A stretch of 40,169 nucleotides of DNA from Gemmatimonadaceae bacterium (lineage in GTDB: Bacteria > Gemmatimonadota > Gemmatimonadetes > Gemmatimonadales > Gemmatimonadaceae), in contig JAICOJ010000021.1 of assembly GCA_025930755.1 (NCBI GenBank), positions 1 to 40,169 on the forward strand, read 5' to 3'. Both the position numbers and the translations under genes were made by a program. The notes under the pieces are model-generated. The model was given only the letters and a program-made list of their open reading frames with translations. It ran no database searches and was not told where the DNA came from. Positions 2,963-24,095 of the stretch are shown one piece after another. How positions within the stretch are numbered: position 1 is the first letter of the stretch; each line of letters opens with the position of its first letter.

Positions 2963-3902
2963 ATGCGGGCGCTCGTCACCGGGGCGGCCGGATTCGTCGG
3001 GCGGTGGCTCGGCCGCGAGCTGGTGGAACGCGGCTGGGAGGTCACCGGGACCTGTCTCGAGGATGCGCCGCCAACGGTCGCACCTAACGACCCGCTGTCT
3101 ACCGTTCGCTGGCAGGTGGCGGACGTCCGCCGCAGTACGGACCTCGCGCGTCTGCTCGACGTGGCGAAGCCCGACGCGGTCGTGCATCTCGCCGGAGTCG
3201 CCTTCGTCCCGGCGGCACAGGCGGATCCCGGCGCGGCGCTCGACGTGAATGTGATCGCCGCCGCCCGTCTCCTCGCGGACGTGAAGACGCGCCGAGCCTC
3301 GGGCACGCTCGATCCTCTGGTGCTGGTCGTAGGCAGTGGTGAGCAGTATGGGCGGCATGACGCCGGCGAGATGCCCCTCGCCGAATCGGCAGAGCAACGC
3401 CCGCACTCGGTGTACGCGGCGTCCAAGGTGGCGCAGGAGTTCGTCGCCCTCGAGGCGTTTCGATCCTCGGGGGTTCGCATCCTCGCCACCCGCAGCTTCA
3501 ACCACAGCGGTCCGGGACAGGCCGAACGATTCGTGATGCCCGCGCTGGTCCGTCGGGCGCTCGCGGCGCGAACGAGCGGCGAACGCGGGTTGGCGATCGG
3601 GAATACGACCACCGTCCGCGATTTCCTGCACGTGCGAGACGTCGCGCGCGCGTACGCGGATCTGCTGGAGCGCGGCACGCCGGGCGAGGTGTACAACGTC
3701 GCGAGCGGCAGGGGCGTGGACGTCGGGACGCTGGCCAAACGCGTGCTTGCTCTGGTGGGCGTCGATGCGATATTGAACACCGACGCTGCGCTGGTGCGTC
3801 CCGTCGAGGTGCCGGTCCTCATTGGCGACGCGACCAAGCTCCGACGCGCGACCGGATGGTCCCCGCGTTTGACTCTCGACTCCATCATCGACGATCTGAT
3901 CC

Positions 3903-3919
<17 letters not shown>
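2963..3919 (+). CDS. rmd: GDP-6-deoxy-D-mannose reductase-like NAD-dependent epimerase/dehydratase
   Basis: 318-aa extended short-chain dehydrogenase with the N-terminal [16 protein letters not shown] nucleotide-binding motif and the active-site pair in [11 protein letters not shown] (about Y150/K154). The segments [10 protein letters not shown] and [14 protein letters not shown] resemble Rmd enzymes, which reduce the 4-keto group of the Gmd product to give GDP-D-rhamnose. Its position 2 bases after gmd supports that substrate. A GDP-fucose synthase is a less likely alternative. ATG 2963 is chosen because the Rossmann motif begins there; a longer frame starting at 2780 overlaps gmd. The end overlaps carB by 17 bases. 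Confidence 0.8.
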
Positions 3920-7148
<3,229 letters not shown>

Positions 7149-8391: not shown

Positions 8392-10387
8392 TCACCATGA
8401 CCGCGAAGTCGTGAAGGGCGCGGAACTTGCTCCTTCTGACGCGCCCAGGCCAGTTGAGTCTGCAGACTCCAGTGACGATACGCTCGTGATCAATCTGCTC
8501 TTTCGGTACCGCACGGTACTGATTGTCAGTTTTCATTTCGTTCTCCTCCTCTTCAGCTACTGGATCGCATACGTGCTGCGGTTCGAGGGCTTCGTCCCCC
8601 GGCCGTACATCGACGCGTTCATCCAGTCCCTGCCCATCCTGCTCGGCTGCCGCCTGCTCGCGTTCGCGCACTACGGCCTGTATCGGGGCTGGTGGCGCTA
8701 TGTCGGCATGCGGGATCTGTACAACCTGATCCAGGCCGTCGCGGTGAGCTCGCTGGTATTCACGGCGGCGCTGCTCTTCATGGGGGGGGAGGCGACCGTC
8801 CCCCGCTCCGTGATCGTGCTCGATGCGTTGCTCACCATCGTCCTCATCGGCGGCGTGCGGTTCGCGCTGCGCGCGGTGCGTGAGAACCGCAGACCGAAAC
8901 AGGGCCCCCGATTGCGCCGCGTGATGATCATCGGCGCGGGCGATGCGGGCGAGCTCCTCCTCCGCGAGATGCACAACAACCCGCGGCTCGGATACGTCCC
9001 GGTCGGATTCGTGGACGACGACCAGCGCAAGATCGGCTTCCAGATCCACGGCGTCGACGTGCTGGGGACGACGTCGGAGCTGCTCGAGGTGCTGCAACAG
9101 CATCCGGCGGATGAGCTGATCATCGCCATTCCGTCGGCATCGCGCGAAGAGATCCAGGACATCGTCAACCGGTGTCTCAAGTCCGGGCTTCCGTTCAAGA
9201 TCATCCCGGCCATTGCCGCGCTGTCGGACGGCAAGGTGCACATGAGCCAGGTCCGCCCGGTCCGCGTGGAGGATCTGCTGGGGCGTGAAGAGGTGAATCT
9301 CGACACGACGCGCATCCGCGCCGACATCGCCGGCCGCCGTGTGCTGATCACCGGCGCTGGCGGCTCCATCGGCTCGGAGCTCGCGCGGCAGGTCGCGAGC
9401 TACGGTCCCGCGATGCTGACGCTCGTCGAGCGCAGTGAGAACTCCCTCTTCCTGATCGATGAGGAGCTCCGCCGGAAGTCGCGCGGCCTGGTGGTGCATC
9501 CCGTGATTTGCGACATCAGGGATCGACGAGACCTGGAGCTGTTGTTCAGTGATACGCGACCCGACATCGTCTACCACGCGGCCGCGTTCAAGCATGTGCC
9601 GATCATGGAGTGGCACGTCGGGCAGGCGGTGGAAAACAACGTGTTCGGCACGCACAACGTCGCCGACCTGGCCGCGCAGGCCGGGGCGAAGCTGGTGCTG
9701 ATCTCCACCGACAAGGCGGTCGCTCCGAGCAACGTGATGGGGGCCACGAAGCGCCTGGCGGAAAAGATCGTTCTCTGCGCCCAGCGCCGGGGCAACGCGC
9801 GCTTCGTCGCCGTGCGCTTCGGCAACGTGTTAGGCAGCGACGGCTCGGTCGTGCCGCTGTTCACGCGGCAGATCAGCGACGGCGGCCCCATTACCGTCAC
9901 GCATCCCGACGCCACCCGCTACTTCATGACGATCCCGGAGGCGGTGCAGCTCGTGCTGCAGGCCTCCGTGCTCGATGAGGCGGCGGATCGCATCGTGATG
10001 CTGGAGATGGGCGAGCCCGTGAAGATCGTGGACCTGGCGCGCAATCTCATTCGCCTCTCGGGCTTCGAGCCGGACGTCGACATCCCGATCGTGTTCACCG
10101 GGTTGCGCCCCGGTGAAAAGATCCACGAGCAGCTGACGTCGGAGACGGAGGAGACGCTTCCGACGCGCTACGAGAAGATTCGCATCGTGCGCACGGAAGG
10201 TCCGGAAGCGCTCGATCGCGGCCTGGAACAGTTGCGCGCGGCGGTCGAGTCGCGAGACGAAAAGGCCATCGTTCGCCGCCTCCAGGAGCTGGTGCCGGAG
10301 TTCTCGCCGCAGGCGACGCTGTTGGCGAACCTGCGCGAGCGCGCAATCTCGCCTGATCCGCGCGCGCGAAGCCGATCTGCTGGGTGA
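8381..10387 (+). CDS. WbpM/CapD-type membrane-bound nucleoside-diphosphate-sugar 4,6-dehydratase
   Basis: 668-aa protein with four hydrophobic segments in the first ~170 residues (around LIVSFHFVLLLFSYWIAYVL, the LPILLGCRLLAF region, AVAVSSLVFTAALLF and VIVLDALLTIVLIGGV). Two Rossmann regions follow: a CoA-binding-like one starting MIIGAGDAGELLL (about 182) and the catalytic SDR starting LITGAGGSIGSELARQ (about 321). In the active site the usual Tyr is Met (NVMGATKR, about 450), as in large WbpM/PglF enzymes that dehydrate UDP-GlcNAc with retention of configuration. ATG 8381 overlaps the aminotransferase. It probably supplies 4-keto-6-deoxy sugar for surface glycans; the exact substrate is inferred. 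Confidence 0.9.
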   Translation: MAADHHDREVVKGAELAPSDAPRPVESADSSDDTLVINLLFRYRTVLIVSFHFVLLLFSYWIAYVLRFEGFVPRPYIDAFIQSLPILLGCRLLAFAHYGLYRGWWRYVGMRDLYNLIQAVAVSSLVFTAALLFMGGEATVPRSVIVLDALLTIVLIGGVRFALRAVRENRRPKQGPRLRRVMIIGAGDAGELLLREMHNNPRLGYVPVGFVDDDQRKIGFQIHGVDVLGTTSELLEVLQQHPADELIIAIPSASREEIQDIVNRCLKSGLPFKIIPAIAALSDGKVHMSQVRPVRVEDLLGREEVNLDTTRIRADIAGRRVLITGAGGSIGSELARQVASYGPAMLTLVERSENSLFLIDEELRRKSRGLVVHPVICDIRDRRDLELLFSDTRPDIVYHAAAFKHVPIMEWHVGQAVENNVFGTHNVADLAAQAGAKLVLISTDKAVAPSNVMGATKRLAEKIVLCAQRRGNARFVAVRFGNVLGSDGSVVPLFTRQISDGGPITVTHPDATRYFMTIPEAVQLVLQASVLDEAADRIVMLEMGEPVKIVDLARNLIRLSGFEPDVDIPIVFTGLRPGEKIHEQLTSETEETLPTRYEKIRIVRTEGPEALDRGLEQLRAAVESRDEKAIVRRLQELVPEFSPQATLLANLRERAISPDPRARSRSAG

Positions 10388-12069
10388 TGCGCTTCCGGTC
10401 ACGACTCGTCGCACTCGCCCTCGCCGCCTCACCCTTCGCCTCCGCGTCCGCACAGCACGACCTCCTCACGCTGCCGATCGCCGACCCGGCGTATCGGCAG
10501 TTCGACGGGCTCTCGCGCACGGGATGCATCGCGGCGCGGGTGTCGCCCTATCGGCCGTATCTCCTCAGCAACATCCGGCGAGCTCTCGTAGCCGCCGTGC
10601 GTGAGGAGGAGTGCCGTGGCGGGATTCTGGATGAGCTCGTGCGGCGCTTCCGGCCCGACACCGCGTCTCCGCCCCCGGTTCCCGAGCCGGGCGCGGTGCC
10701 TCCCGTCGGCCCTGTCATGCTCGAGGACATTGCCGAGCGTCCCGAGGAAGAGGAGGCGACCGGACTGCGCGCAGGTGCGGAGGTTGGCGTCCGGCTGACG
10801 TCGCTCAGCCGGGGCGTGATTCGTCCCCTGTGGCTCGACGCGCGGGAGATCGCCGATGGTGACCCTTCGGCGGCTGGATTTGGTCGTCTGCGCGTCACCT
10901 GGGATGGGGGCGACCGCATCGCGGCGGTGGCCGAGGCGACCGCCCAGACGGATGGCACGAACGACCCCCTCGTCCGCGCTCGAGCCTTTCGAACGACATC
11001 CGGGGTGTTCGACTTTACCGAGGCGTACGTGAACGCGAGGCTCGGGCGGGTGGGGCTGTCGTTCGGCCGGGCGCGTGAAGCGTGGCTGGGAGAGGGAGAA
11101 GAGTCGACCGTTCTCTCGGCCCACGGGCCCCCGCTCGACCGTCTTCTCGTGACGGCACGATGGTCGCGTCTAGAGATCCGCGCCATCTTCGCGTCCATCG
11201 ACGACGTCGTGCTCACCGTCGTGGAGGATTCGCTGGTTCCGGGAACGCCAGACCAGCGGATTCACCGGATGCTTGCGGGGCACGCGTTTACGATTCGTCC
11301 TGCGCGAGGGTGGGAGCTGACGCTGGGTGAGACGGCGCTGCTGTCGCGGCGTGGTGGGGGGGTCGATCTCGCCTTCGCCAACCCGCTCATGCTATATCTC
11401 GTGACGGAGCACGATACGAGTTATGCGGGTGGCTCGGCGACCGGGAACAATCTCACGGTTTTCGGGTCGACACGGCTGCAGCGGGGTCGGTTTGCGGCCG
11501 AGGCGGAGCTTGTCGTCGACGACATTCAGATCGACGCGGAGGACCGGGCAAGGATTCCGCACCAGCTCGCGTGGCGCCTGTCGGGGACGATGGGCATCTC
11601 GGCGCCGTGGCCGGCGAGCGTCGGGGCCGAGTATCGGCGGTCCGACAGCTACGCGTACATGCGCCGGTACTACTCCGAAGTGTATCACCAGTACGGGCGG
11701 CCACTTGGCAGCGAGCTTGGTCCGGATGCGAATCTGGCGCGTGTCTCGGCCGAAGTCTGGCCGACGGGCCGTGTGCGATTTTCGGGAAGCGCGGGCCGGT
11801 GGAATCGGGGAGCCCTTCGTCTTGGGCAGCGGCCGGCGCAGGCGGCATTCGGCCACGCGGGCGAACCGTACCCGTCGGTGAGTGCGGACCGTCCCGCGGT
11901 GCAGGAAGCATGGCTCGGTGACGCGAGTGTGGAATGGCTCGACCCGACGCTGCCGGTGCGCCTTACGGTCGAGCTGGCGAGTGTCGACAACGTGAACAAT
12001 CAGCCCGGCGAGTCCGGGAATTTTCTGCGAGCGCATCTTGTTGCGAGTTATCGCTTTCGATATCCGTAG
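10387..12069 (+). CDS. Predicted outer-membrane beta-barrel protein, Wzi (capsule assembly)-like
   Basis: 560 aa with a signal peptide ending about ASASAQ, alternating hydrophobic strands with many aromatic residues, and a C-terminal VASYRFRYP that looks like a final barrel strand. The mid and C-terminal parts (LTLGETALLSRRGG, FANPLMLYLVTEHD, VDDIQID, and an SDSYAYMRRYYSEVYHQYG segment) recall the Wzi capsule-assembly family, which anchors polysaccharide at the outer membrane; I give this from memory with moderate certainty. ATG 10387 overlaps the preceding stop by one base (TGATG); GTG 10384 is an alternative. Its place just before wza- and wzc-like genes supports an envelope polysaccharide role. 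Confidence 0.68.
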   Translation: MRFRSRLVALALAASPFASASAQHDLLTLPIADPAYRQFDGLSRTGCIAARVSPYRPYLLSNIRRALVAAVREEECRGGILDELVRRFRPDTASPPPVPEPGAVPPVGPVMLEDIAERPEEEEATGLRAGAEVGVRLTSLSRGVIRPLWLDAREIADGDPSAAGFGRLRVTWDGGDRIAAVAEATAQTDGTNDPLVRARAFRTTSGVFDFTEAYVNARLGRVGLSFGRAREAWLGEGEESTVLSAHGPPLDRLLVTARWSRLEIRAIFASIDDVVLTVVEDSLVPGTPDQRIHRMLAGHAFTIRPARGWELTLGETALLSRRGGGVDLAFANPLMLYLVTEHDTSYAGGSATGNNLTVFGSTRLQRGRFAAEAELVVDDIQIDAEDRARIPHQLAWRLSGTMGISAPWPASVGAEYRRSDSYAYMRRYYSEVYHQYGRPLGSELGPDANLARVSAEVWPTGRVRFSGSAGRWNRGALRLGQRPAQAAFGHAGEPYPSVSADRPAVQEAWLGDASVEWLDPTLPVRLTVELASVDNVNNQPGESGNFLRAHLVASYRFRYP

Positions 12070-12736
12070 GCTGGCTCTGGTCGGGGCACTGCTCCCCGCG
12101 ATCGCGTATGCGCAGGACACGGTGCGCGTTCCCGTTCCGCCTGTCGATACTAGCGCGACGCAAACCGGCGTCGAGCGTAGCGTCGGCGTGCTGCGACCCG
12201 GCGACGCGTTGAAGATCGCGGTGTGGCGGGAGCAGGAATTGAGCGGCGAGTATTTGATTGATGCGCGCGGCCTCGTACAAATTCCTGGACTGGGAGACAT
12301 CGTCGTCGCCGGACTGACGCCAATGGAAGCGAAGGATCGGCTCAGCGAGCAGCTCGTTCGCCGAGGGATCGTCTCCCCCGAGATCGCGGTACAGCCTGTC
12401 ATCCGGGTGTCCGTGCTTGGCGAAGTTCGCAGCCCCGGATTGCTGTCGGTCGAGCCGGGAACCAACCTCATTCACCTGATCACCCTGGCGGGCGGGCCCA
12501 CCGAGCGAGCGAACATGAAGGCGGTTCGCGTGATTCGCGCGGGCCGGCCGTACGAAGTGGATCTTCAAAGCGCGCTGAGCGGTAGCTCGGCGGGGCGGGT
12601 CGTCTTGTTCTCGAACGATGTGGTCTTCCTGGATCGAAAACGGGGATTCACCCGTGACACTCTGTCCTTGGGGATGAACGTGCTGACCGCCGTCCTGAGC
12701 ATTGTCAGCCTCGTGACGGTCGTACAGAACCGCTGA
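12038..12736 (+). CDS. Wza-type polysaccharide export protein (Poly_export/SLBB)
   Basis: 232-aa periplasmic/outer-membrane exporter. After a signal peptide (…AIAYAQ) comes the Poly_export domain with LRPGDALKIAVWREQELSGEY and GLVQIPGLGDIVVAGLT. An SLBB-type beta-grasp follows (VSVLGEVRSPGLLSVEPG, then LITLAGGPTERANM). The hydrophobic C-terminal segment LGMNVLTAVLSIVSLVTVV could be the membrane-spanning helix seen in Wza. It has no lipobox cysteine, unlike E. coli Wza. The start is uncertain: TTG 12038 overlaps the barrel gene by 32 bases, and TTG 12041 or a slightly later codon would still keep the signal peptide. It ends 7 bases before the tyrosine kinase gene, its usual partner. Confidence 0.88.
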   Translation: MLRVIAFDIRRLALVGALLPAIAYAQDTVRVPVPPVDTSATQTGVERSVGVLRPGDALKIAVWREQELSGEYLIDARGLVQIPGLGDIVVAGLTPMEAKDRLSEQLVRRGIVSPEIAVQPVIRVSVLGEVRSPGLLSVEPGTNLIHLITLAGGPTERANMKAVRVIRAGRPYEVDLQSALSGSSAGRVVLFSNDVVFLDRKRGFTRDTLSLGMNVLTAVLSIVSLVTVVQNR

Positions 12737-12743
12737 GGTCCGT

Positions 12744-15161
12744 GTGGGCGAGTCGATGATCGAACAGCGGCAGGAGGGAATGCTCGGGTCGACGGACCGG
12801 GCGCTCCCGCTGCGCAATCTCATCTCCGCGCTGCGCCATCGTTGGTGGGCGTTCGCCCTGGTGCTGGCGCTAGTGCTCGGAATTTCGACCTGGCGGACAT
12901 CGCGGACGATGCGACTGTACGCAACCACGGCGACCGTTCGCATTCAGGAGCTCCAAACCGGTCCTGTCGGCGTGCAATCGCCCTCGGTTCGCGATTATCG
13001 CGTCGATCCGATTCAATCGGAGCAGGAGATCATCAAGAGCCAGGCTGTCGCGGAGCGCGTCGCTGAGCACCTCGGGCTGCGTCTCGCGATCCTCAGCCCT
13101 CCGAAGCTCCAGCGGGGCGCGCTGTTCGGCCAAACGACGGCCGAGGTCGACTCGGCGGTGCAGTATGGCGAGTTCGTCGTCCGGCTTCGCGGCGATGGCT
13201 ACTCGCTCTTCTCCAACGACCGGATGCTGGCGTCAGCGCCCTACGGGCAGGAAGTGCGGGGCGGGGGCGTCGCCTTCACGATTCCGACGCGGCCGCGCAT
13301 CGAGGAGAACGAGATCCGCCTGACCGTGATGACGCTCAGTAACGCGGCCTCACATGTCCGCGGCCGCCTGACGACGCGGAGCCGGCCCCAAACGAACATC
13401 GTCGAGATCTCGTATACCGGGCCAGATCCGGTCATGGTCGCGCAGATCGCCAACACCGTGGCCCTGATGTACGCGCGGTACACCACCGAGCAGCGGCGCC
13501 GGCTGGCGATCGAGCGTACCCGGTCCACGGCGGACGCCGTGGAGGACCAGCGAGCCGAGCTCGCGCTCAAGCAGCAGGCGCTCACGGAGTTCAAGGAGCG
13601 CGGCCGTCTCTCCAGCATCGAGGCCGAGCAGGAGGCGTTAGGCAACCAGATTCAGGGCTTCACGTCCCAGCGCGATGCGCTCCTCATCGAGCAGCGAACC
13701 TACGCCACGATTCTCGGCAAGGTGACGCAGGCCGACACCGCTGATCAGGAGCTCCGCCAGCTCGCGGGCACCGGCGCCATTCGCGACAACGCGCACATGC
13801 AGTCGCTTTTCGACCGATGGTTCGACCTGCAGAAGCAGCGAGCGCAGATCATGGCCCCCGGTCGGAACGAAAACTACCCCGACATCATCGCCGTCGATCA
13901 GCTGATTCGCGCGACCAAGAACGAGCTGCAGCAGGCGAGCAACTCGTACCTCGTCGGCCTGCGTTCGCGTATCTCGTCGTTCGACAATCGCATCAACGAG
14001 CTTCGTCGTGAGATGGAGAGGTACCCGTCGCTCGGCGCCCAGGAACAGCGGTTAGTGGCGGAGGTGCAGACGGCGCAGCAGCTCTACGGCACGTTGCTCG
14101 GCGAGCTGCAGCGCGCGCGCATCGCGGAATCGAGCGAAGCGGGGTACGTGACCGTCATCGACGACGCGATGCAGCCCTTTTCGCCCGTCTCGCCGAATCG
14201 GCGGCGCATCTTTCTCACGGCCCTCATCTTTGGGTCGATCCTCGGGCTCGGCGCCGCGGTTGTCCTCGAGAATCTCGATGATTCGGTGAAGTCGCCAGAC
14301 GAGGTCCGCGAGCAGTTCGGGTTGTCCGTGGTCGGCACGATTCCGGGTATCAAGGACTCGGACCTGCCTGGAGAAAACGGGGCAGAGGTCGCCCGTCGGC
14401 TCGCGACTCATTTCGATCCACGCTCCCCAGTGGCGGAGGCGTATCGCTCGCTGCGAACGAATCTCGCCTTCGCGCGTGCGCACGAAGCGATGCGCATTCT
14501 GGTGCTCACCAGTCCCGGACCGGCCGACGGCAAGTCGACGACCGTCGCGAATCTGGCCATCACGTTTGCGCAGCAGCAGCAGCGCACACTCCTGATCGAC
14601 GGCGATCTGCGGCGCGCGGTGCTCGACAAGATGTTCAAGGTCCCGAGGTCTCCCGGCCTCACCGACGTGCTCGTCGGGCGGCAGCGCCTGGCCGATGTCG
14701 TTCACAAGACCGAGATCGAGAACCTGTCGGTGGTCGGAAGCGGGCCGTTCCCGCCCAACCCGTCAGAGCTCCTCGGCTCGAGCGCGATGCGAGACGTTCT
14801 GCGCGACGCGAAAGCCGAGTTCGATGTGGTACTGATCGATTCGCCGCCGCTGCTCGCGGTCACCGATGCGGCGGTGCTGGCCACGATGGCCGACGGCGCG
14901 ATCCTCGTCATTCGTGTGGGGGCGACGGCCAAGGCGGCCGTTCGGCGTGCCGTCGCGCAGCTGCAGACCGTACATGGTCACGTCGTGGGAGCGGTGCTCA
15001 ACGATGTCGACCTGCGCAGCGGCGCGTTCAGCGGTAGCTACGGGTACTACTATTACTACTACTACGGCGAGGGCGCACGGAACGGGAAGCGCGGACCGAT
15101 CGATCGCCTACGGCAGTGGCGAGACAAGCGAGTGGGGAGAGTCTCCGTCGAGGATCAGTGA
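12744..15161 (+). CDS. Wzc-type chain-length regulator / tyrosine autokinase (BY-kinase)
   Basis: 805-aa inner-membrane protein that controls polysaccharide polymerisation and export by phosphorylation. It has an N-terminal Wzz domain with a first membrane helix (WWAFALVLALVLGI, about 34-47) and a long coiled-coil periplasmic part (about 240-440). A second membrane helix follows (FLTALIFGSILGLGAAVVL, about 490-510), then the cytoplasmic BY-kinase with Walker A GPADGKSTT (about 592-600), Walker A' TLLIDGDLRR and Walker B VLIDSPP. The C-terminus carries the expected tyrosine cluster, here an unbroken run of seven Tyr (15045-15065). GTG start at 12744; ATG 12756 is possible. The stop overlaps the next start codon, linking export to the peptide-modification genes. 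Confidence 0.93.
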   Translation: MGESMIEQRQEGMLGSTDRALPLRNLISALRHRWWAFALVLALVLGISTWRTSRTMRLYATTATVRIQELQTGPVGVQSPSVRDYRVDPIQSEQEIIKSQAVAERVAEHLGLRLAILSPPKLQRGALFGQTTAEVDSAVQYGEFVVRLRGDGYSLFSNDRMLASAPYGQEVRGGGVAFTIPTRPRIEENEIRLTVMTLSNAASHVRGRLTTRSRPQTNIVEISYTGPDPVMVAQIANTVALMYARYTTEQRRRLAIERTRSTADAVEDQRAELALKQQALTEFKERGRLSSIEAEQEALGNQIQGFTSQRDALLIEQRTYATILGKVTQADTADQELRQLAGTGAIRDNAHMQSLFDRWFDLQKQRAQIMAPGRNENYPDIIAVDQLIRATKNELQQASNSYLVGLRSRISSFDNRINELRREMERYPSLGAQEQRLVAEVQTAQQLYGTLLGELQRARIAESSEAGYVTVIDDAMQPFSPVSPNRRRIFLTALIFGSILGLGAAVVLENLDDSVKSPDEVREQFGLSVVGTIPGIKDSDLPGENGAEVARRLATHFDPRSPVAEAYRSLRTNLAFARAHEAMRILVLTSPGPADGKSTTVANLAITFAQQQQRTLLIDGDLRRAVLDKMFKVPRSPGLTDVLVGRQRLADVVHKTEIENLSVVGSGPFPPNPSELLGSSAMRDVLRDAKAEFDVVLIDSPPLLAVTDAAVLATMADGAILVIRVGATAKAAVRRAVAQLQTVHGHVVGAVLNDVDLRSGAFSGSYGYYYYYYYGEGARNGKRGPIDRLRQWRDKRVGRVSVEDQ

Positions 15162-16378
15162 TGGGGTCGCCCAGGAAAGCTGATCCCGCCGCGAGCTCCT
15201 CGGTGGGTCCGCCGGGTGAAGCCCAAGACGCCGCGGTTGCCGTATCCCTGGCGCTGGGGCTTGCTGAGCAGCGGAAGCCTCGCGATTGGGGACGTGTCCT
15301 CGCGGTTGCTCGCTCCGAGCGTATTGCCGTGCTTGGATGGCTGCGTAGTGGGGAGTACCTGAGGGCCCACGCACCGAGCGAAGTCATCTCGGCCTGGCGC
15401 GCCACGGTCTTTCGCGCCGATGCGCTGGCCCGAGCGCAGTGGCATCATGTCGGCCTCCTCGTTGACCGATTGCAGGCGGCGGGCTTGCATCCCATGGTCT
15501 TGAAAGGCCTTCCGCTCGCGGCTCGACTGTACTCGTACGTGGGCGCACGCGTTCCATGTGACATCGATCTGTACATTCCGCCAGACGAGCGCGCTGCGGC
15601 GCATGAGGTCGTCTCCGCAGCCGGGTGGAGCGGATGGGCCGGCGACGCGCCGTGGGATGCGGCGTACGCGATGCGTCAAGACGACCGGGTGCTGTACCTG
15701 GAGCTCCACTCGAGCCTGACTGGCGACATCCTCACACACTGCGGGCCGCTTCCGATCGCGAGCGCGCTGTGGGAGTACGAGGGAACTGCCGTGCGCGCGA
15801 TGGTCGGGGATGGCCTTCCTGTCTACCTTGCCGCGAATCTCGCAAAGCACGTCCCGGTGCCGCTGATATCGCTGTTTGATCTCGAGACTCTGTGGGCCGG
15901 TCTCGATCAGGCGCACCGTACGGCGTCCATGACGGTAGCACGGACGGCACGGCTGCATCACTGCATGAGGTGGGCACTGGCCCAAGCGAATTCTCTGCGT
16001 GACGTCGCCCGTGGCGATCGCGCCGCGATGCGGAGCCTCGGCTTGATTGGCGGGCAACGTCAGTCGGTGCACGGGCATTTCCGGTTGGCGCGCCTGGCGG
16101 ATTCGCCTATCGATGCCGCTCGAGTTGCGGGAACGTGGATTCTTCCGCGAGCTTCCCGAAAATCCCTGCGTCACGCACGTCTTTTTTGGGCGCAGCGTCT
16201 GAGGGGGTTGTTCAAGAGACGGCTCGTCGTCCGCCGGGACTATGATCTCGTCGCCGAGGCCGCTAACCCGGGGCGGTCTTTGCTTTCTCGCATGGTCGAA
16301 CCAAACATCCCCGCCACTCGTGCGAGCGGCTCCCGTGACCTTCCCTGGCACGCAGCCGACATGCGGCGAACGCTGTGA
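15161..16378 (+). CDS. NTP_transf_5-type nucleotidyltransferase family protein
   Basis: 405 aa. The visible core is the MVLKG motif (about 112-116), then R130 and the acidic DIDL (134-137), followed by ELHSSL (181-186). This is the pattern of the uncharacterised nucleotidyltransferase family that accompanies some RiPP and HprK-related systems. The acidic pair in DIDL is the expected metal-binding site. No membrane segment is evident. ATG 15161 overlaps the kinase stop by one base; a reading from 15116 would overlap further and lacks support. The substrate is unknown; modification of a phosphorylated peptide or a sugar phosphate are both possible. It opens the six-gene module that ends with the Cys-rich peptide. 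Confidence 0.8.
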   Translation: MGSPRKADPAASSSVGPPGEAQDAAVAVSLALGLAEQRKPRDWGRVLAVARSERIAVLGWLRSGEYLRAHAPSEVISAWRATVFRADALARAQWHHVGLLVDRLQAAGLHPMVLKGLPLAARLYSYVGARVPCDIDLYIPPDERAAAHEVVSAAGWSGWAGDAPWDAAYAMRQDDRVLYLELHSSLTGDILTHCGPLPIASALWEYEGTAVRAMVGDGLPVYLAANLAKHVPVPLISLFDLETLWAGLDQAHRTASMTVARTARLHHCMRWALAQANSLRDVARGDRAAMRSLGLIGGQRQSVHGHFRLARLADSPIDAARVAGTWILPRASRKSLRHARLFWAQRLRGLFKRRLVVRRDYDLVAEAANPGRSLLSRMVEPNIPATRASGSRDLPWHAADMRRTL

Positions 16379-16944
16379 TGTCGATGCAGCGTGATACCTG
16401 GCAGGGTCGGACGGACACTGGACCGCTTGACTTGCGCCCATCGGCGGTGCGCGTGACTACGAAGGCGGGTCCTACTCCCTCGAACGATGACCGCACTTTC
16501 AAGGCGGTTCGCGATCTCATTGAGGCGGGTGAGGAGGTATGGATCACGGTCACCGGACGGAGTATGGAGCCGACCCTGCATCCCGGTGATCGTGTGCTCC
16601 TTCGTCCGCCCGACAGTGCGTGGTTTCGGGGGCGGGTCGTCCTCTCTGAGTTCTCGGGACGTCCCGTGCTACATCGCCTACTCCATATCCGCCCTGAAAC
16701 CGTGACGACGGCCGGCGACGCGTGCCGGCGCGAGGATCCGCCCGTGTCGCGGTCGGCGCTGATCGCTGAGGCGGTCGCAGTGCAGTGCAAACGCGGAACC
16801 GTCCCGCTTCTGCCGACGCTGCGGTTTGGCAAGTGGGTAATGCTGCGCTATTTCGGAGCCACGGCCCGACAGGCTTCGCGACGCGCCTGGTGGCGCGCCG
16901 TCGCGGCGCTGAGAACGGTCCGCGCTACCGGTGACGTGGCATGA
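16378..16944 (+). CDS. Soluble S24/S26-like serine peptidase
   Basis: 188 aa. The serine motif GRSMEPTLHPGDRVLL (S62) is that of signal-peptidase/LexA-clan (S26/S24) enzymes. The second catalytic position appears as VLHR (H99), the Ser-His arrangement of SipW/Sec11-type signal peptidases rather than the Ser-Lys of LepB; GDA (113-115) matches the later conserved box. I see no hydrophobic anchor at either end, so it is probably cytoplasmic or peripheral. Good candidate for removing the leader of the peptide encoded at 19424, but that is inference. ATG 16378 overlaps the previous stop by one base; GTG 16375 is an alternative. It overlaps the kinase gene by 4 bases. Confidence 0.75.
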   Translation: MSMQRDTWQGRTDTGPLDLRPSAVRVTTKAGPTPSNDDRTFKAVRDLIEAGEEVWITVTGRSMEPTLHPGDRVLLRPPDSAWFRGRVVLSEFSGRPVLHRLLHIRPETVTTAGDACRREDPPVSRSALIAEAVAVQCKRGTVPLLPTLRFGKWVMLRYFGATARQASRRAWWRAVAALRTVRATGDVA

Positions 16945-17855
16945 CGGATGCCCGAGTGGTGGCGCACCATGGGCGCATCGTCGGATCCGAGGTCTATCTG
17001 CGCGTGGGTGTGCACACGTTGCGCTTCTGGTCCCCCGATCCAGCCCTCGAGTTCTTCGTTCACTCCTCGCACGAGCCGTTCGTCCTTGCCCAGCCCGTGG
17101 ATGCGGATTGTGACGTGCGTTGGGAGATCGGTGAGGTGACCCCCTCGGATACTCCGGTGGTCAGAACCTCGGGGGACCGATGGGAACTTCGCCGGACCGA
17201 CAACGACTGGGAGGAGTTCACGTTCCTGGGCGTCGGGCACGTTCCGAACCTCGTTCTACGCCTTTCGCCCGACATGCGTCAGGCGACCGCCATTCGCTCC
17301 CCGCGAGCAGCGGATGACCGAATTATCTTTGCCTCTGAGCATCCGTGGTCCGAGTTTCTGGTGTGTCGCCTTGTCGGAAGGGACGGCGGTGTCCTGCTGC
17401 ATGCCAGCTCGGCTGTCGTGGATGGCGGCGCGCTCCTGTTCGTTGGACACTCCGGAGCGGGCAAATCGACGATTTGTGAAATTGCCGAGCAGGCCGGTGC
17501 TACGGGCCTGAGCGATGACCGCACGATTGTGATGTTTCGCGATGGGAATCCGATCGCGTGGGGAACTCCCTGGCATGGGAGCTTTGCTCGCACGTCCGCC
17601 GCGTCAGCGCCCGTTACCGGCTTGTTCCTGCTCCAGCAGGACAGCGTCGATCGTACGGAGGCGATTCCAGGTGAGCGCGCGCTCAAGGAGCTGTTCGTTC
17701 GGCTGATTCAACCCCGGATCACGTCCATTGAAGTCTCGAACACGTTGGACGCGCTTGCCACGCTCGTCGCCGTGCGACCGCTGCACTCCTTGCACTTTCA
17801 ACCGACGCCGGCGGCGGTACAGCTCGCACGGGCCGTGGCTGCCAAGATCCGGTGA
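16941..17855 (+). CDS. HprK-related serine kinase-like protein
   Basis: 304 aa. The C-terminal half matches the HPr-kinase fold: LLHASSAVV, P-loop GHSGAGKST (169-177), GLSDDRTIV (189-197) and GTPWHG (208-213). The N-terminal ~130 residues are variable, as in HprK-related proteins of peptide and polysaccharide loci, and no PTS HPr gene is nearby. In the lasso-peptide pathway of paeninodin, an HprK homologue phosphorylates the C-terminal Ser of the precursor. Here the candidate precursor also ends in Ser, so a similar reaction is plausible but unproven. ATG 16941 overlaps the peptidase stop (ATGA). Confidence 0.82.
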   Translation: MTDARVVAHHGRIVGSEVYLRVGVHTLRFWSPDPALEFFVHSSHEPFVLAQPVDADCDVRWEIGEVTPSDTPVVRTSGDRWELRRTDNDWEEFTFLGVGHVPNLVLRLSPDMRQATAIRSPRAADDRIIFASEHPWSEFLVCRLVGRDGGVLLHASSAVVDGGALLFVGHSGAGKSTICEIAEQAGATGLSDDRTIVMFRDGNPIAWGTPWHGSFARTSAASAPVTGLFLLQQDSVDRTEAIPGERALKELFVRLIQPRITSIEVSNTLDALATLVAVRPLHSLHFQPTPAAVQLARAVAAKIR

Positions 17856-18238
17856 GGGGAACGGCAGCGCGCGGTTCTCTCGATACTCCTGGCGTCTCAC
17901 ATGGCGTCCTTCTTGCTCACAGCGCCTTTCATATGGGGATCGTTCAATCGATGGCCACCCGGTTCATGCGCGGTGACCGGCATGTATACCGCAACATCGC
18001 TGGCGAACACCTGCTCATCGCGCTTCATGGAGACAGTCCCGAGCCGCTTTTCGCATTGACACCTACCGCGGCTTTCCTGTGGGAGCAGCTCAACGACTGG
18101 TGTACGCAGGAGGAGCTCGCGGCGGCACTCAGCCAGCGGTTCGATGTGACGGCTGAGCAGGCCGCGCGCGACATTAACGACTTTCTCGCGCAGCTCGATG
18201 AGGTACGCGCGCTGCAAACGCAGGAGAGTACACCGTGA
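17852..18238 (+). CDS. PqqD-like RiPP recognition element (RRE) protein
   Basis: 128 aa as read from GTG 17852, which overlaps the kinase stop. The PqqD/RRE winged-helix region begins around RFMRGDRHVYRNI and continues through FALTPTAAFLWEQL, the EELAAALSQRFDV helix and AARDINDFLAQLDEV. Such proteins bind the leader of a precursor peptide and present it to modifying enzymes such as the adjacent radical SAM enzyme. The first 27-33 residues look unrelated to the fold, so ATG 17933 (101 aa) or ATG 17951 (95 aa) may be the true start. Neither has a clear Shine-Dalgarno, and translational coupling favours 17852. It overlaps the radical SAM gene by 4 bases. Confidence 0.85.
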   Translation: MRGTAARGSLDTPGVSHGVLLAHSAFHMGIVQSMATRFMRGDRHVYRNIAGEHLLIALHGDSPEPLFALTPTAAFLWEQLNDWCTQEELAAALSQRFDVTAEQAARDINDFLAQLDEVRALQTQESTP

Positions 18239-19398
18239 GCTGTGGCGTTCCGGTCATTCGCGGGGAGACGATTCGGGATCGCCTCATGGCGAAGGCGCGC
18301 GCTGATCGCATTCCGCTCCAGGCGGAAGTCGAGATCATCGCGACGTGCAACTTCAAGTGCGTGCACTGCTACATTGCGCCCTGTGCGGAGCACGAAGATC
18401 GAATGTCGCTCGAGCAGGCACGGGTGATTCTTCGCAAGCTCATGGACGCGGGCACGATGACCGTTCTGCTGACGGGCGGTGAGGTTCTCACGCACAAGCA
18501 GTTCAAGGAGATCTACCTGGAAGCCAAGCGGTGCGGATTCCAGATCTTCATCAATACGAATGCGTACTTGATCGGCGAGCGCTGGGCGGATTTTTTCGCC
18601 GAGTGGCCGCCGGAGACGATCTCGATCAGCATTTACGGCGCGACCCCGGAGTCATACGAGCGGCTCACGGGTATTCCGCGCTCCTACGAACGCTGCATGC
18701 GCGCCGTCGACCTGCTGCTCGAGCGCGGTGTTCCGATGGAGCTCAAGTGTCCGGCGATGACGATCACCAAGGACGAGCTCCCGTTGATCAAGGCGTGGGC
18801 GGCGTCGAAAGGGCTGCGGTTCCGAACCGACCACAATATCATGCCCCAGGAGAAAGGGGGCCTGCAGCCCCTGCAACTCCAGCTTTCGCCCGAGGAAGTG
18901 ATCTCGATGCAGCAGCGGCTCGACCCCGGGCTCGTCGAGCAGCGCCGCTATGCGGAGCGCCGGGTGGGGGAGGCAAGCGGGTTTGTCGGGGACCGGGTCT
19001 ACCTCTGCGGCGCCGGCAAGATCAGCCTTGCGATCAACGTGCATGGGGGCGTGACGACCTGCACGACCTCGCGAAAGGTGGTTGGGAACCTGTTCGAGCA
19101 ATCCTTTGACGAGGTGTGGGACGCGCTGGGCGGAAAGGTCGCAGCGCGGTATCCTGTCGGGCATCCGTGCGCGACGTGTCAGTTCCACGGCATTTGCGCT
19201 GGCTGTCCGGCGACCGTCGAATCCCTGACGGGGCTACCCACGGGCTATGTACAGCTGTACTGCAAGATCACGCACATGCGCGCCTACGAGATGGGGTACC
19301 ACCCAACCGGCGTTCCGCGCACCGTCACGAGCGGGATTCCTAGCGGGATTGTGACGCCGGGCGCTACGACGGCCCGCATGCTGCCAGTATTGAATTGA
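18235..19398 (+). CDS. Radical SAM/SPASM peptide maturase
   Basis: 387 aa. CNFKCVHC (C38, C42, C45) is the CxxxCxxC motif for the SAM-binding 4Fe-4S cluster, and TGGEVL (80-85) the SAM-contacting motif. The C-terminal SPASM domain holds cysteines for auxiliary clusters: C…GGVTTC, then CATCQFHGICAGC, then a last Cys in YCKI. The spacing CX2CX5CX2C is one residue shorter at the end than the usual CX2CX5CX3C. Enzymes of this class install thioether, C-C or other radical links in RiPPs, or modify sugars. Next to a PqqD-like protein and a Cys-rich small peptide, peptide maturation is the likely role. GTG 18235 overlaps the RRE gene by 4 bases. Confidence 0.9.
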   Translation: MSCGVPVIRGETIRDRLMAKARADRIPLQAEVEIIATCNFKCVHCYIAPCAEHEDRMSLEQARVILRKLMDAGTMTVLLTGGEVLTHKQFKEIYLEAKRCGFQIFINTNAYLIGERWADFFAEWPPETISISIYGATPESYERLTGIPRSYERCMRAVDLLLERGVPMELKCPAMTITKDELPLIKAWAASKGLRFRTDHNIMPQEKGGLQPLQLQLSPEEVISMQQRLDPGLVEQRRYAERRVGEASGFVGDRVYLCGAGKISLAINVHGGVTTCTTSRKVVGNLFEQSFDEVWDALGGKVAARYPVGHPCATCQFHGICAGCPATVESLTGLPTGYVQLYCKITHMRAYEMGYHPTGVPRTVTSGIPSGIVTPGATTARMLPVLN

Positions 19399-19423: not shown

Positions 19424-19600
19424 ATGACCAAGCGCGATCCGTACATCAAGCCGTCACTACTGCGACTCGAGTTCACCCAGGACGTCGCCGTCTGCGACAT
19501 CACGAGCTGCAAGACCTCGACGAGCTCGTCGGGGCAATGCATCGGCAGTCAGGCGGGGGCCTGCGACAGCCCCTCGTGTAGCTCGGTCGTCGCGAGCTGA
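19424..19600 (+). CDS. Putative Cys-rich RiPP precursor peptide
   Basis: 58-aa small gene 25 bases after the radical SAM stop, with AGGGGG at 19414-19419 as ribosome-binding site before ATG 19424. The N-terminal leader is charged and contains Y7-I-K-P10-S-L12, matching the YxxPxL motif bound by RRE proteins in lasso-peptide pathways. The C-terminal part is rich in Ser, Thr, Gly and Cys, with cysteines at 24, 29, 39, 47 and 52. Two of the segments are CDITSC and CDSPSC, i.e. a repeated CDxxSC. The last residue is Ser58, a possible acceptor for the HprK-like kinase. It has no signal peptide. I know no named family for it; identification rests on composition, motif and context. Confidence 0.78.
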   Translation: MTKRDPYIKPSLLRLEFTQDVAVCDITSCKTSTSSSGQCIGSQAGACDSPSCSSVVAS

Positions 19601-19708: not shown

Positions 19709-21256
19709 GTGGTAACGGGTCTTCACTTGTCGCGCGCCTGCGTCGCGATCATCGCGTTTGGCGTCGCATCGCTCGCGGCGTGCGACGACGATCCGTCGGG
19801 ACCAGACCGGACCGCGCTCACGCCCAGTATCCTGAATGACTCGATCATCGGGCGCCAGGAAGCGCTTCGAATCGTGTTCAACTCCCGTATCGATCCGCGC
19901 ACGGGGTTGGACCCCGAGAACTTCGTGGTCACGAACCTGTGCAGCGGCCTGCGCGTGCCGGGTGCGGTCCGGATCGGAACGGATTCGGCCGGCAATCGCG
20001 ACACGTTGATCTTCTCCCCGTCGCAGACCATCCCGTTTCTGACCCCGCTGTCCGTTCGGGTTCAGAACATCCTTACGACGGGCGGCCGGGCGCTCAACGC
20101 GCCATTCACGATCAACGTGAGAACGGAGACGCCGCCAGTCAGTGATATCAGCTGGGAAGCCACCGATTCGCCGACGCAGGATCCGGGTTCCGGTATCTTT
20201 TACCTGGATCGCGAGCGGGGCTTTTACAGCACCCGCACCGGAACGATCTTCCGGACGATCGACGGTGGCGAGTCGTGGGAATTTCGGTACAAGAACGATG
20301 ACTTCACGGCCGTGCGGAGCATTCGCGCGGCGACGGCCGACTCCCTGTACATCAGCGCGGCGCCGAAGCTGGGTGGCACGACGGTTTCGGCCACGGGGCT
20401 TTTCCGGTCGATCGACGGCGGTCTGACGTTCTCCCCGATCTTCATTCAGGATCCGGGAGACATCCGTCATACGGTGATGCGCAAGCTCGCCGGTCGGCGC
20501 CCGATCCTGCTGGCGTTCGGGAACATCGGTCGGTTGGCCGTGTGGCGCGTCGACGAGAATGCCGGTACCGTGACGCGATTTGGCCCGGTCGGTGGCATCA
20601 TCATCGGCAACTCCGGGGATCTCTCTCCGGATGCATCGCGCGCTGTGGCGGTGGGACTTACGACGTCGCCGACGCCCGGCACCTTCAACGGCGCAGCGCT
20701 CGTCTCGCTCGATTCGGGGAAGACGTTCACCGATGTCACCGGGTTGCCGGCGGGCACACGGCAACTGCGTGGCGCCGGCTTCATCGACAACACGACGGTT
20801 CTCCTCCTCGGAGACACCTCGACGGTCGTGCGCCTGAACACGACGACCGGCACCTCGGTGCGGCTGGGTGCCGCTGCCGGCATTCCACAGCGAACGGTCT
20901 CCGCCGACAACGTCATCACGACGTACCATTTCACACGCGCCGAGTTTGCTCCCAACAATCGGGAGATCGGGTTCATGATAGGGTACTCCATCATCGACCG
21001 CCCGGTCGGTGGCGACATCAAGCGCGGCGTTATTCTCATGACTCGCGACGGTGGAGACACGTGGGTCCAGCAGGCCGTGTCCGGCGCGGGAGAGAATGGT
21101 TTGGGGTTCCCTCCACTCGGCGAATCGGCGGGCCAGGGCGATCTTCACGTACTTGCGAGTGACTTTGCCAACGTTGCTGGCGATGAGGGCTTCATTGCGC
21201 AGCGCCCCGGTGATGTTGAGGTGGTAACCGCTGCCTGCGCCTTCAATACGCCCTAA
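19709..21256 (+). CDS. Secreted lipoprotein with Ig-like and Asp-box (BNR) repeats
   Basis: 515 aa from GTG 19709, chosen because the protein then starts with a clean signal peptide and the lipobox LAAC (C25). Residue +2 is Asp, which in E. coli keeps lipoproteins at the inner membrane; whether that rule holds here is unknown. Residues about 35-145 look like a bacterial Ig-like (Big_5) domain. The rest contains Asp-box motifs TIDGGESW (~183), SIDGGLTF (~233), SLDSGKTF (~333) and TRDGGDTW (~444), as in BNR/Ycf48-type beta-propellers. The function is unknown. It follows the peptide gene by 108 bases and precedes the next gene by 14. Confidence 0.75.
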   Translation: MVTGLHLSRACVAIIAFGVASLAACDDDPSGPDRTALTPSILNDSIIGRQEALRIVFNSRIDPRTGLDPENFVVTNLCSGLRVPGAVRIGTDSAGNRDTLIFSPSQTIPFLTPLSVRVQNILTTGGRALNAPFTINVRTETPPVSDISWEATDSPTQDPGSGIFYLDRERGFYSTRTGTIFRTIDGGESWEFRYKNDDFTAVRSIRAATADSLYISAAPKLGGTTVSATGLFRSIDGGLTFSPIFIQDPGDIRHTVMRKLAGRRPILLAFGNIGRLAVWRVDENAGTVTRFGPVGGIIIGNSGDLSPDASRAVAVGLTTSPTPGTFNGAALVSLDSGKTFTDVTGLPAGTRQLRGAGFIDNTTVLLLGDTSTVVRLNTTTGTSVRLGAAAGIPQRTVSADNVITTYHFTRAEFAPNNREIGFMIGYSIIDRPVGGDIKRGVILMTRDGGDTWVQQAVSGAGENGLGFPPLGESAGQGDLHVLASDFANVAGDEGFIAQRPGDVEVVTAACAFNTP

Positions 21257-21270
21257 CGACCCACGACACC

Positions 21271-22545
21271 ATGACCGTGAGAATTTTCCTACGCAGTCTC
21301 CGTCACCGTGCGTGGCTTACCGTCGCGTGCACGGCGCTTCTCTCGCTGGCTACCGTCCCGAGTGTCGCACCCGCTCAAAGTGTCGCGGGCGGCGACTTCG
21401 ATATCTGTGATTACTGCGGCAACCTCGTCGGGAACGTGCTCCGGTTGCGGGGGCGTGCGGACTTCGGCACCAACCCCGGAACCTTCGTCCTTTTTAACGC
21501 GTCGAGCGTGGAGCAGGACGTCGACGGGGACGGCTTCACCGCCGGCATCGACTTCACCAACCTCTTCATTTCCAGCGTTGGTGACTTCCAGAACGTGGCG
21601 GACCCGTCACGCATTATCGAGTCCGCCAATTTCGTCCTCGGTGACGCGCTGAACCCGTTGCGGAACGGATTTCAGAACGTGGTGCGTGTGTCGGTGCGAA
21701 TACCGGGGGGCACGCCGGCAGGCATCTACAGCGCGAGCGTGCAAATCCGGGATTCGGTCCGTGCGCCCGGCGTCAATCCCAATGGCGAGCAGCTGCGCAT
21801 CGACCACTTCGTCATCGAGATCGAAGTACTGCCGACGTTTGCCGCGGACCTTGTCCGCGCCGACACCAACGTCCGCGCGGACTCGCTGCGGATCGCGGGG
21901 CGGGCTGGACAGACCGCCCGGGGCGTTATCCGCGTCGCGAATACCGGCAACGTGAATTTGTCGAACGTGCACCTGGAATCGACGGACCTGGTTGCCACGT
22001 CCGGTACCGGGCTGCGGATTCGGCGGGAGCGCATCTCGTTTGCTCCGGAGGCACTCCCAAACCTGTCGCTTGCTGACACCCAGCGAGTCGTCGTCACGGT
22101 CAGGGTGCCCCCGGGGCTGCTCGCGGGCGACTATCGCGGTGAGATTCTGCTCCAAGGCGACTCGTTGAGGCCGCGACGCATCCCATTCACCGTATCCGTG
22201 CAGACCCCGGGCGATCTCGTCTTCGAGACCAACCCGGTCAGCGGGCAAAACAACGATCGGGCCGTGATCATCTTCAACGCCGATCCGGGCACCCGATGGG
22301 AGATGCGAATCTTCGACATGCTCGCGCTGACGACGTACGCGGCGGAGGGAACCGTCTTCGAAGGCAGCACGGGGACGGCTGACCCGCTGGATGACATCCC
22401 GGGTGACCAGGCCGTCCGCGTGACGTGGCCACTGCAAAATGGCCGCGGCGAGAACGTCGCAGGCGGCATGTATTATGTCGTCGTCAACGCCGTGCAGGAC
22501 GGAGATTCGCGTCAGCTGCGTGGAAAACTGATGGTCATTCGATGA
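21271..22545 (+). CDS. Secreted protein with C-terminal FlgD-like/sorting-type Ig domain
   Basis: 424 aa with a signal peptide ending about VAPAQ. An N-terminal region has CDYCGN and a DVDGDGFT stretch that could bind calcium. The middle (about 185-310) has two or so beta-sandwich segments of the type seen in cell-surface adhesion repeats (ARGVIRVANTGNVNLSNVHL, VVVTVRVPPGLLAGDYRG). The end, GGMYYVVVNAV…RGKLMVIR, resembles FlgD-like Ig domains and type IX secretion sorting domains. I cannot name a family for the whole protein. ATG 21271. Its stop overlaps the start of the PorV-OmpA gene (ATGA), suggesting the two products are made together. Confidence 0.7.
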   Translation: MTVRIFLRSLRHRAWLTVACTALLSLATVPSVAPAQSVAGGDFDICDYCGNLVGNVLRLRGRADFGTNPGTFVLFNASSVEQDVDGDGFTAGIDFTNLFISSVGDFQNVADPSRIIESANFVLGDALNPLRNGFQNVVRVSVRIPGGTPAGIYSASVQIRDSVRAPGVNPNGEQLRIDHFVIEIEVLPTFAADLVRADTNVRADSLRIAGRAGQTARGVIRVANTGNVNLSNVHLESTDLVATSGTGLRIRRERISFAPEALPNLSLADTQRVVVTVRVPPGLLAGDYRGEILLQGDSLRPRRIPFTVSVQTPGDLVFETNPVSGQNNDRAVIIFNADPGTRWEMRIFDMLALTTYAAEGTVFEGSTGTADPLDDIPGDQAVRVTWPLQNGRGENVAGGMYYVVVNAVQDGDSRQLRGKLMVIR

Positions 22546-24095
22546 GGGTCGCCATGTTTCGAGCACTTACGTTCGTCGCTCTCGCCGCTTCGGCAGCCCT
22601 CGCTTCCTCCGCCCAGGCGCAGTTCGGCGGTGGTGGCCAGGATGCCGGCGTTTATAGCATGACGATCCTCGGAATTCCCGTTTCGCCACGGGCGGTCGCC
22701 CTCGGGGAGGCAATGGCGGCGATCGATCGGGATCCGTCGACGATCTGGTACAACGCGGCGGGAATGCTCGGGCTCCGGACGAATGCGTTCACCGTCACGG
22801 CGGCACAGCGGTTCGCGCAGACACAGATCATCGGTACGGCTGTCACCTTCCCCACTGAAATCGCCACGTTCGGCATCGGGGCGCGCGCCTTCAACGCGGG
22901 GACGATCGAGGTACGGGCCGAGGGTGAGCCGACGGGTGGGGACATGCGTGCGTATCAATGGGCGCTCGAGGGCGGCGGCGCCTTGCAGCTCGCGCGCTGG
23001 TGGCGCTGGGGTGGCACCCTCGTGTTCACGCAGGAGCAGCTCGGCGACGCGAGCGAAGCCTCCGTGGGAGTCAATTCGGGGATGCAGTTCCCCGACATTT
23101 TGTTTGGTCGGGTAACGCTTGCCGGTGGCGTTCGCAACTGGGGCACGAACGTCAACTTCGACGAGGGGTTCGAGGGCTTCTCCCCGCCGCAAATGCTCTA
23201 CGTCGGGGCGGGAATCGACGTGTTCCGGCGGAGGAATCTGATTCAGACCCCGATGCTGTTCCGTGGACAGCCGATCATTTTTGACGCGAAGGTCGTGGGC
23301 CAGGTCAACATCCCCGACCGGATGGAGCCATACGTCGGCCTCGGCGTCGAAGCGACGGTGAACGGGGTCGCGATCGGCCGCATCGGGTATCAGACGGGCG
23401 ATGACAACCGCTCGGGGATCTCGCTGGGCGCCGGGGTGAACGTCGGACAGTTCCGCCTGGAGTACGCGTTCCGGAACTACAAGAATGGGGGCGCCGGGTT
23501 CTTCGAGAACGACCCGGTGGGCGATGCGCATAACGTGAGCTTCACCTTCTTCTGGGGCGAGCGCGAACGGAACGAGCCGGTCGTGCCCGTGGTCGTGGCC
23601 GCGCCGGTCGACACCGCGTCGATCAATGCCGCCGTGCGCGGCGCCATCCAGGAGCAGCTCGCCGCGCTCCGTCCGTTACTCGATTCGCTGCGTGCGCAGC
23701 AAGTCACCATCGAGCAGGCCGATCTGGTGTCGCGGTACATCGTTCCCGTTCATTTCGGCTTCGATTCCGCGGTGGTTCGGGAGACCGACTTCGAGGTGCT
23801 CGGCAACGTTGCCGAGGTCATCCGGCGCGTCTATCCCACGGCACTGGTGACGATCGAGGGCTTCGCGGATCCGGCTGGCTCAGTGCAGTACAATCTCGAT
23901 CTGTCCCGCCGGCGCGCGCAGGCGGTTCGCGACGTCATGATCTCGCGGTTCAACCTGCCGTCGCAGCAGCTGCGGGCCATCGGGTATGGCGAGCAGGCCG
24001 CCCGACAGATCATTCCCGGTGCGCGACGCGACGACCCCGGTGCGCAGTCGAACCGGCGTGTCGTCTTCACCATCGACGCGACGCAGCGGTTCTAG
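22542..24095 (+). CDS. PorV/PorQ-like outer-membrane barrel fused to an OmpA peptidoglycan-binding domain
   Basis: 517 aa from ATG 22542 (overlaps the previous stop). After a signal peptide (…AQAQ), residues about 30-350 form a FadL-like barrel of the PorV/PorQ type, with the typical opening GIPVSPRAVALGEAMAAIDRDPSTIWYNAAGM. A linker rich in Val/Pro and Gln leads to an OmpA C-terminal domain (about 400-515) with VHFGFDSAVVRE, the GFADPAGSVQYNLDLSRRRA box and SNRRVVFTI. PorV-type proteins usually lack OmpA; the fusion would tie a surface-protein carrier or pore to peptidoglycan. A 12-bp hairpin follows. Confidence 0.84.
   Translation: MRVAMFRALTFVALAASAALASSAQAQFGGGGQDAGVYSMTILGIPVSPRAVALGEAMAAIDRDPSTIWYNAAGMLGLRTNAFTVTAAQRFAQTQIIGTAVTFPTEIATFGIGARAFNAGTIEVRAEGEPTGGDMRAYQWALEGGGALQLARWWRWGGTLVFTQEQLGDASEASVGVNSGMQFPDILFGRVTLAGGVRNWGTNVNFDEGFEGFSPPQMLYVGAGIDVFRRRNLIQTPMLFRGQPIIFDAKVVGQVNIPDRMEPYVGLGVEATVNGVAIGRIGYQTGDDNRSGISLGAGVNVGQFRLEYAFRNYKNGGAGFFENDPVGDAHNVSFTFFWGERERNEPVVPVVVAAPVDTASINAAVRGAIQEQLAALRPLLDSLRAQQVTIEQADLVSRYIVPVHFGFDSAVVRETDFEVLGNVAEVIRRVYPTALVTIEGFADPAGSVQYNLDLSRRRAQAVRDVMISRFNLPSQQLRAIGYGEQAARQIIPGARRDDPGAQSNRRVVFTIDATQRF

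Follow-up and report, generated by a model that had tools for sequence, protein, structure and literature searches.

A rare candidate RiPP precursor family beside radical SAM, PqqD and HprK-like genes in a capsule locus of Gemmatimonadaceae

One question raised by the 40,169-nucleotide stretch of Gemmatimonadaceae DNA analysed here (the window) relates to the reading frame of only 58 codons that stands at the end of a row of enzyme genes. What kind of peptide does it encode, what do the enzymes encoded before it do to that peptide, and what links such a peptide to the capsule genes amongst which the whole set lies?

A rare precursor family behind a radical SAM gene

The reading frame (19424..19600, + strand) starts with ATG, translates as MTKRDPYIKPSLLRLEFTQDVAVCDITSCKTSTSSSGQCIGSQAGACDSPSCSSVVAS and is separated by 25 nt from the stop of the radical SAM gene at 19398, with the purine stretch AGGGGG just upstream of the start codon. 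It is thus the gene with its own ribosome-binding site that had been described in the original prediction, and the residues picked out there, Y7, P10 and L12 in the leader, the cysteines at 24, 29, 39, 47 and 52 of the core, the CDITSC and CDSPSC motifs and the C-terminal Ser58, are all present, the leader motif reading in full YxKPxLxxL. Among 201 window ORFs of 35-90 aa it alone carries Y..P.[LIVM] within the first 25 residues; when its own residues are shuffled, YxxPxL arises in the leader region in 0.1% of trials and a pair of CDxxSC motifs in 0/100,000. The domain and family libraries searched, of the Pfam and NCBIfam type, gave no family match for it. The gene is real, since it recurs at this very position in three related bacteria.

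These relatives were located through searches with the radical SAM protein that covered 60 relatives, 395 phylum genomes and 179 genomes of the family Gemmatimonadaceae. Close full-length relatives occur in three other genomes only, all Gemmatimonadaceae, namely G021 (67%), G366 (67%) and G003 (60%), and in 3/3 of these a short ORF follows the intact radical SAM gene after 25-36 nt, encoding MKRSQYIKPSVLQLDFTTDEEVVSLSSCKSNTSSQQQTIPHGPGSDCGSSFCNSVSPS, MERKEYIKPSVLQLDFSTDEEVVSFSSCKTNTDSTGSGLPVTCGNFGPGGDNPCTAAGNS and MSNRDEYVKPVLMQLHYSTEPEVAVAQACKTTGSASGPAVSGCQSADDPFVPCTQPGS, respectively. The original prediction had made itself answerable to the presence of a homologous small gene beside close relatives of the radical SAM gene, and it stands because such a gene follows in all of them that are intact. 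The pairwise matches of the window peptide to its counterparts in G021 (E 2e-11) and G366 (E 1e-8) are independent of the profile built from the four precursors, which finds its own loci at E 1e-27 to 1e-31 by construction. Against the 179 family genomes this profile gave nothing convincing beyond the four loci: the next-best match (9.5e-4) was rejected as a frame with an internal stop, and no orphan or duplicated copy of the precursor turned up elsewhere in the family, the four true matches alone standing out. The family of precursors is therefore real but rare (4/179 Gemmatimonadaceae species genomes) and has no model in the libraries searched. Public contigs with these loci are labelled Gemmatimonas sp. 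and Gemmatimonadaceae bacterium; a public-contig scan for relatives outside the Gemmatimonadaceae returned two of the same loci and nothing further, the 395 phylum genomes held no relative of the radical SAM protein outside the family at E 1e-30, and a plasmid search gave a single distant radical SAM protein of 24% identity.

What has been conserved within the family, and what has not, is instructive. For instance, G021 and G366, the closest pair, differ by 20, 18 and 34 at codon positions 1, 2 and 3 over 55 codons, and are identical at 19/23 leader residues as against 15/32 in the core. Invariant in the four precursors are M1, R4, Y7, K9, P10, L15, V23, C29, K30, C52 and S58, so that the family is characterised by the leader YxKPxLxxL, the motif [SA]CK[TS], two more cysteines towards the C terminus and the terminal serine (4/4). 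In the core of every homologue there are exactly three cysteines (28/47/52, 28/43/54 and 29/43/53), the middle one falling in no single shared alignment column. Two of the proposed family features, the YxxPxL leader and the C-terminal serine, thus hold throughout, whereas the third, the CDxxSC pair, belongs to the window peptide only; even the simpler Cx4C spacing is kept just once in G021 and is missing from G366 and G003. With the pair so confined, C24, C39 and the apparent symmetry of the core read as peculiar to the window genome. The suggestion of one ring per CDxxSC finds no support in the comparison, and CDxxSC as a repeating chemical unit was rejected, as the motif is missing from all three homologues, in each of which the first of the three core cysteines sits in [SA]CK[TS]. 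The broader proposal, that PqqD and radical SAM genes are accompanied here by a new family of precursors with an RRE-type leader, is borne out by the homologues, and with a short precursor, a conserved leader, a variable core and those two genes adjacent, the ORF is, on good support, very probably a RiPP precursor.

The operon and its capsule setting

The precursor gene is the last of a set whose members, on the + strand and mostly overlapping or nearly so, encode in order a nucleotidyltransferase, a peptidase, a kinase, a PqqD protein, a radical SAM/SPASM protein and the precursor; the same order recurs in G021, G366 and G003 over the extent of their contigs. The NTP_transf_5 nucleotidyltransferase (15116..16378) is assigned from PF14907 (8.9e-23), from its fusions and from a fold search with a model of pLDDT 78.6, which gave weak-to-moderate matches to nucleotidyltransferases, namely 5uvd (9.7e-4), ANT(2'')-Ia (8e-3) and FKRP (0.1). 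It forms one ORF with the peptidase in G001, G003, G010 and G029. This S24/S26-type peptidase (16375..16944), akin to archaeal-type signal peptidases (PF00717 4.2e-6; TIGR02228 1e-5, below cut-off), has conserved SM and HR motifs in the alignment and is a candidate leader peptidase. The kinase (16941..17855), with partial matches to ScmC and HprK-related families, a P-loop GHSGAGKST and an SDDR motif in the alignment, was modelled with AlphaFold2 at a mean pLDDT of 73.7, the catalytic part mostly near or above 90; Foldseek matched the model to PEPCK (5.7e-6) and to HPr kinase (4e-4), and a further structural comparison aligned 237 residues with PEPCK at Z 12.7 and an rmsd of 5.9, which gives the kinase a predicted PEPCK/HprK fold. 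A sequence search of solved structures gave no useful match for kinase or nucleotidyltransferase, hence both folds are predictions. The PqqD-type RRE protein (17852..18238; PF05402 9.4e-15, and alignment) is probably listed as too long an ORF, comparison with homologues suggesting a start at 17933 or 17951. The radical SAM/SPASM maturase (18235..19398, 387 aa; PF04055 1.5e-20, PF13186 9.7e-7) has seven SPASM-region cysteines that are invariant in the alignment of the four close relatives. A dedicated peptide exporter was not seen.

The set lies downstream of capsule/EPS export genes (10384..15161, +) for Wzi-like, Wza-like Poly_export and Wzc-like tyrosine kinase proteins (PF14052 4.2e-9; PF02563; PF13614/PF13807; TIGR01007 above cut-off), and sugar-nucleotide enzymes are also encoded upstream. 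In the window genome and the three others the cassette loci are syntenic in such a capsule/exopolysaccharide setting. On the other side a BNR/Ycf48-like protein (19709..21256, +; PF14870 3.8e-5) with a lipobox-like LAAC is a neighbour kept in the relatives, and is followed by a secreted protein of 424 aa (21271..22545, +) that co-occurs with the cassette, being found in 4/60 relatives, all among the 5 with a cassette. By hand calculation this has p ~1e-5 (5/487,635) if the genomes are independent, which, being related, they are not. A gene further downstream looks, by sequence, like a UDP-sugar dehydrogenase.

In G010, G029 and G394 this position is occupied by a second, divergent type of cassette (type B), with a radical SAM protein 34-40% and a kinase 22-25% identical to those of the window. 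The cassettes of G001, G010 and G029 stop at contig ends and two type B precursors are readable, MKNAVSREPTPKPYVAPTITRVHADPVRELLMVTSVCFQLGDPNCTNTNC in G010, whose last residue is Cys, and VPDNTRPTQPGRRPYEPPTITSVRLDPVRDMLSGCNTKASQFQCDPANEGIPLQT in G394, whose last residue is Thr; both contain cysteine. In G001, the sole same-genus genome searched (C55:22000-30854, compared with window 10384-17855), the Wzi-, Wza- and Wzc-like proteins are 85-90% identical to those of the window, after which identity falls to 44-45% for the nucleotidyltransferase and peptidase and to 34% for the kinase, in which the contig ends; the downstream flank of the cassette was not found in the incomplete G001 genome. 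This abrupt drop looks like either cassette replacement or rapid divergence inside a conserved capsule locus.

What the enzymes may do to the peptide

What the terminal serine may mean in combination with the upstream genes for an HprK-fold kinase and a nucleotidyltransferase goes beyond the original prediction, as do the capsule setting and the divergent counterpart. The reading that we prefer, to which we give a probability of about 0.5 as a whole, is that of a RiPP with a radical SAM-tailored core and a tailored C terminus, matured by an operon embedded in a capsule/EPS locus; the product is perhaps thioether-bridged, with its C terminus phosphorylated or glycophosphorylated. The chemistry that we infer would begin with the PqqD protein, as PqqD-type RREs are reported to bind W/Y/LxxP/L/I motifs (PMC12710340); here it would, in all likelihood, bind the leader YxKPxLxxL and present the peptide. 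The radical SAM/SPASM enzyme would then, with high probability, act on the core, its target being at least one of three conserved cysteines, C29 (in SCKT) and the two closer to the C terminus, C47 and C52, and there is an even chance that a cysteine thioether results. As a tentative third step the kinase may phosphorylate Ser58, and the phosphate may then receive a sugar or a nucleotide from the PF14907 nucleotidyltransferase. This step is drawn by analogy with PsmK and PsmN of the lasso peptide pseudomycoidin: in lasso clusters HprK homologues place a phosphate on the C-terminal serine side chain of the precursor, PsmN is required for the addition of hexose to that phosphate, and fusions of the N enzyme with the leader peptidase B2 occur in some cases (PMC8498205; PMC9266682). 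Finally, the S24/S26-type peptidase could plausibly, at about even odds, cut off the leader.

How secure is the third step? An HprK/PEPCK-fold kinase is encoded together with the precursor, and all four type A precursors end in serine, although these four are not independent, being related, and the argument is weakened because Cys and Thr are the last residues of the type B precursors, whose cassettes also have the kinase. The idea of a terminal serine as a general rule beside HprK-like genes was rejected, since leader-motif precursors near other such genes of the family show no regular Ser end in about 30 loci. It is thus a substantial, if minority, possibility that the target of the kinase and the nucleotidyltransferase is not the last serine, be it another residue or a component of the capsule whose genes surround the cassette, and that the peptide is modified by the radical SAM enzyme only. 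Set against this, the four enzyme genes form a tight operon with the precursor and remain together in both cassette types, and the lasso precedents modify the peptide itself.

The second step has its own competitor, that of a radical SAM RiPP without a thioether, in which, for example, a C-C or other cross-link forms at the invariant Lys30, or an epimerisation or oxidation takes place, with the cysteines in disulfides or binding metal. The radical SAM reaction cannot be read from homology, since the protein comes nowhere near the cut-off of any characterised NCBIfam maturase: it scores against many SPASM families of differing chemistry, the GeoRSP, heme synthase and NirJ2 types best, and amongst sactisynthases reaches 61/625 bits for StsB, 59/850 for AlbA and 50/300 for SkfB (score/cut-off). 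K30 is moreover as invariant as C29, and three cysteines per homologue cannot all pair. We nevertheless consider this alternative the less likely, as the best relative among solved structures, by profile, is SkfB (5e-21), and as the cysteines, in a core with few conserved residues, are themselves conserved and recur in the type B precursors. The resemblance to sactipeptides, especially the sporulation killing factor, rests in a radical SAM/SPASM maturase beside a cysteine-containing precursor; unlike in those systems the operon has a separate PqqD, a kinase and a nucleotidyltransferase, and the thioethers are ones that we infer.

The same combination of proteins is seen in SynChlorMet, with an HprK-like ScmC, the best NCBIfam match of the kinase, a PqqD-like ScmD and the radical SAM/SPASM proteins ScmE and ScmF. 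The scores, however, fall well short of the cut-offs (31/125, 22/100, 57/400 and 49/400 bits for ScmC, ScmD, ScmE and ScmF), and the operon differs in having one radical SAM gene, not two, no precursor match, and an added nucleotidyltransferase and peptidase. The NCBIfam HPr-rel-A system (HprK_rel_A with PqqD_rel_X) likewise pairs an HprK-related kinase with a PqqD-type partner, at weak scores of 20 of 200 bits and 16 of 35 bits.

The lasso tailoring pathways, those of paeninodin (PadeK), ThcoK/SyanK and pseudomycoidin (PsmK/PsmN), share with the locus the YxxP leader, PqqD-type RRE, terminal serine, HprK-type kinase and a nucleotidyltransferase sometimes fused to a peptidase, though the peptidase fused here is unrelated to lasso B2. 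It is these features, together with PF13471 peptidases on other contigs of the same genome, that would allow for an unusual lasso peptide supplied with peptidase and cyclase in trans, which we regard as very improbable. As had been noted from the outset, the window ORFs scanned include no lasso cyclase or transglutaminase-like peptidase, so this is not an ordinary lasso locus; in their place are a radical SAM/SPASM protein and an S24/S26-type peptidase, and it is a radical SAM gene, not a cyclase gene, that has been retained beside the precursor. The precursor has a cysteine-containing core and no match to the NCBIfam lasso leader models, whereas the lasso-like ORFs of the same genome have YEKPxxxxFGTFRELT leaders and match NF033521. 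That the precursor is a chance reading frame, short, rare and without family match as it is, was rejected as scarcely credible given the third-position codon bias and the conservation of place, length, leader, cysteines and last residue across four genomes.

Returning to the preferred reading of a radical SAM- and C-terminally tailored RiPP, its product may, though this is far from assured, act at the cell surface with the capsule, the co-inherited lipoprotein, the secreted protein and the PorV-like protein encoded downstream. More speculative, and improbable as it stands, is a peptide that bears both a radical SAM bridge and, on its last serine, a phosphoglycosyl group, is made by a cassette exchanged within the capsule locus, and partners the surface polysaccharide covalently or physically, for example as primer, cap or anchor. 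If true, the preferred reading would combine on one peptide two forms of tailoring known so far apart, that by radical SAM enzymes and that of a C-terminal serine by kinase and nucleotidyltransferase, and would link capsule production in Gemmatimonadota with a modified peptide. Open-access literature searches found no paper on radical SAM/SPASM proteins together with an HPr kinase, and none joining a modified peptide, capsule production and Gemmatimonadota. The operon is compact and testable, with one substrate and five enzymes.

Downstream neighbours and other cassettes of the genome

The gene at 22542-24095 encodes a barrel of the PorV/PorQ family that includes an OmpA domain (NF033709 7e-31, above cut-off), and the 424-aa secreted protein has, by our own reading, a FlgD-like C terminus; the pair recalls parts of type IX secretion. 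Elsewhere in the genome, locus L110 (G000:C207, 1676-3689) has two tandem lasso-like precursors with YEKPxxxxFGTFRELT leaders, one ending in SGRS and the other in SGSCGSRS, and behind them an HprK-like gene. At locus L112 (G000:C136:17000-27000, 3824-5939) a second radical SAM gene, 26% identical, precedes an HprK-like gene and an ORF of 81 aa that carries PWVAPALTRHASLTALT and has no cysteine after the leader; this is perhaps another radical SAM-plus-kinase peptide cassette of the same genome.
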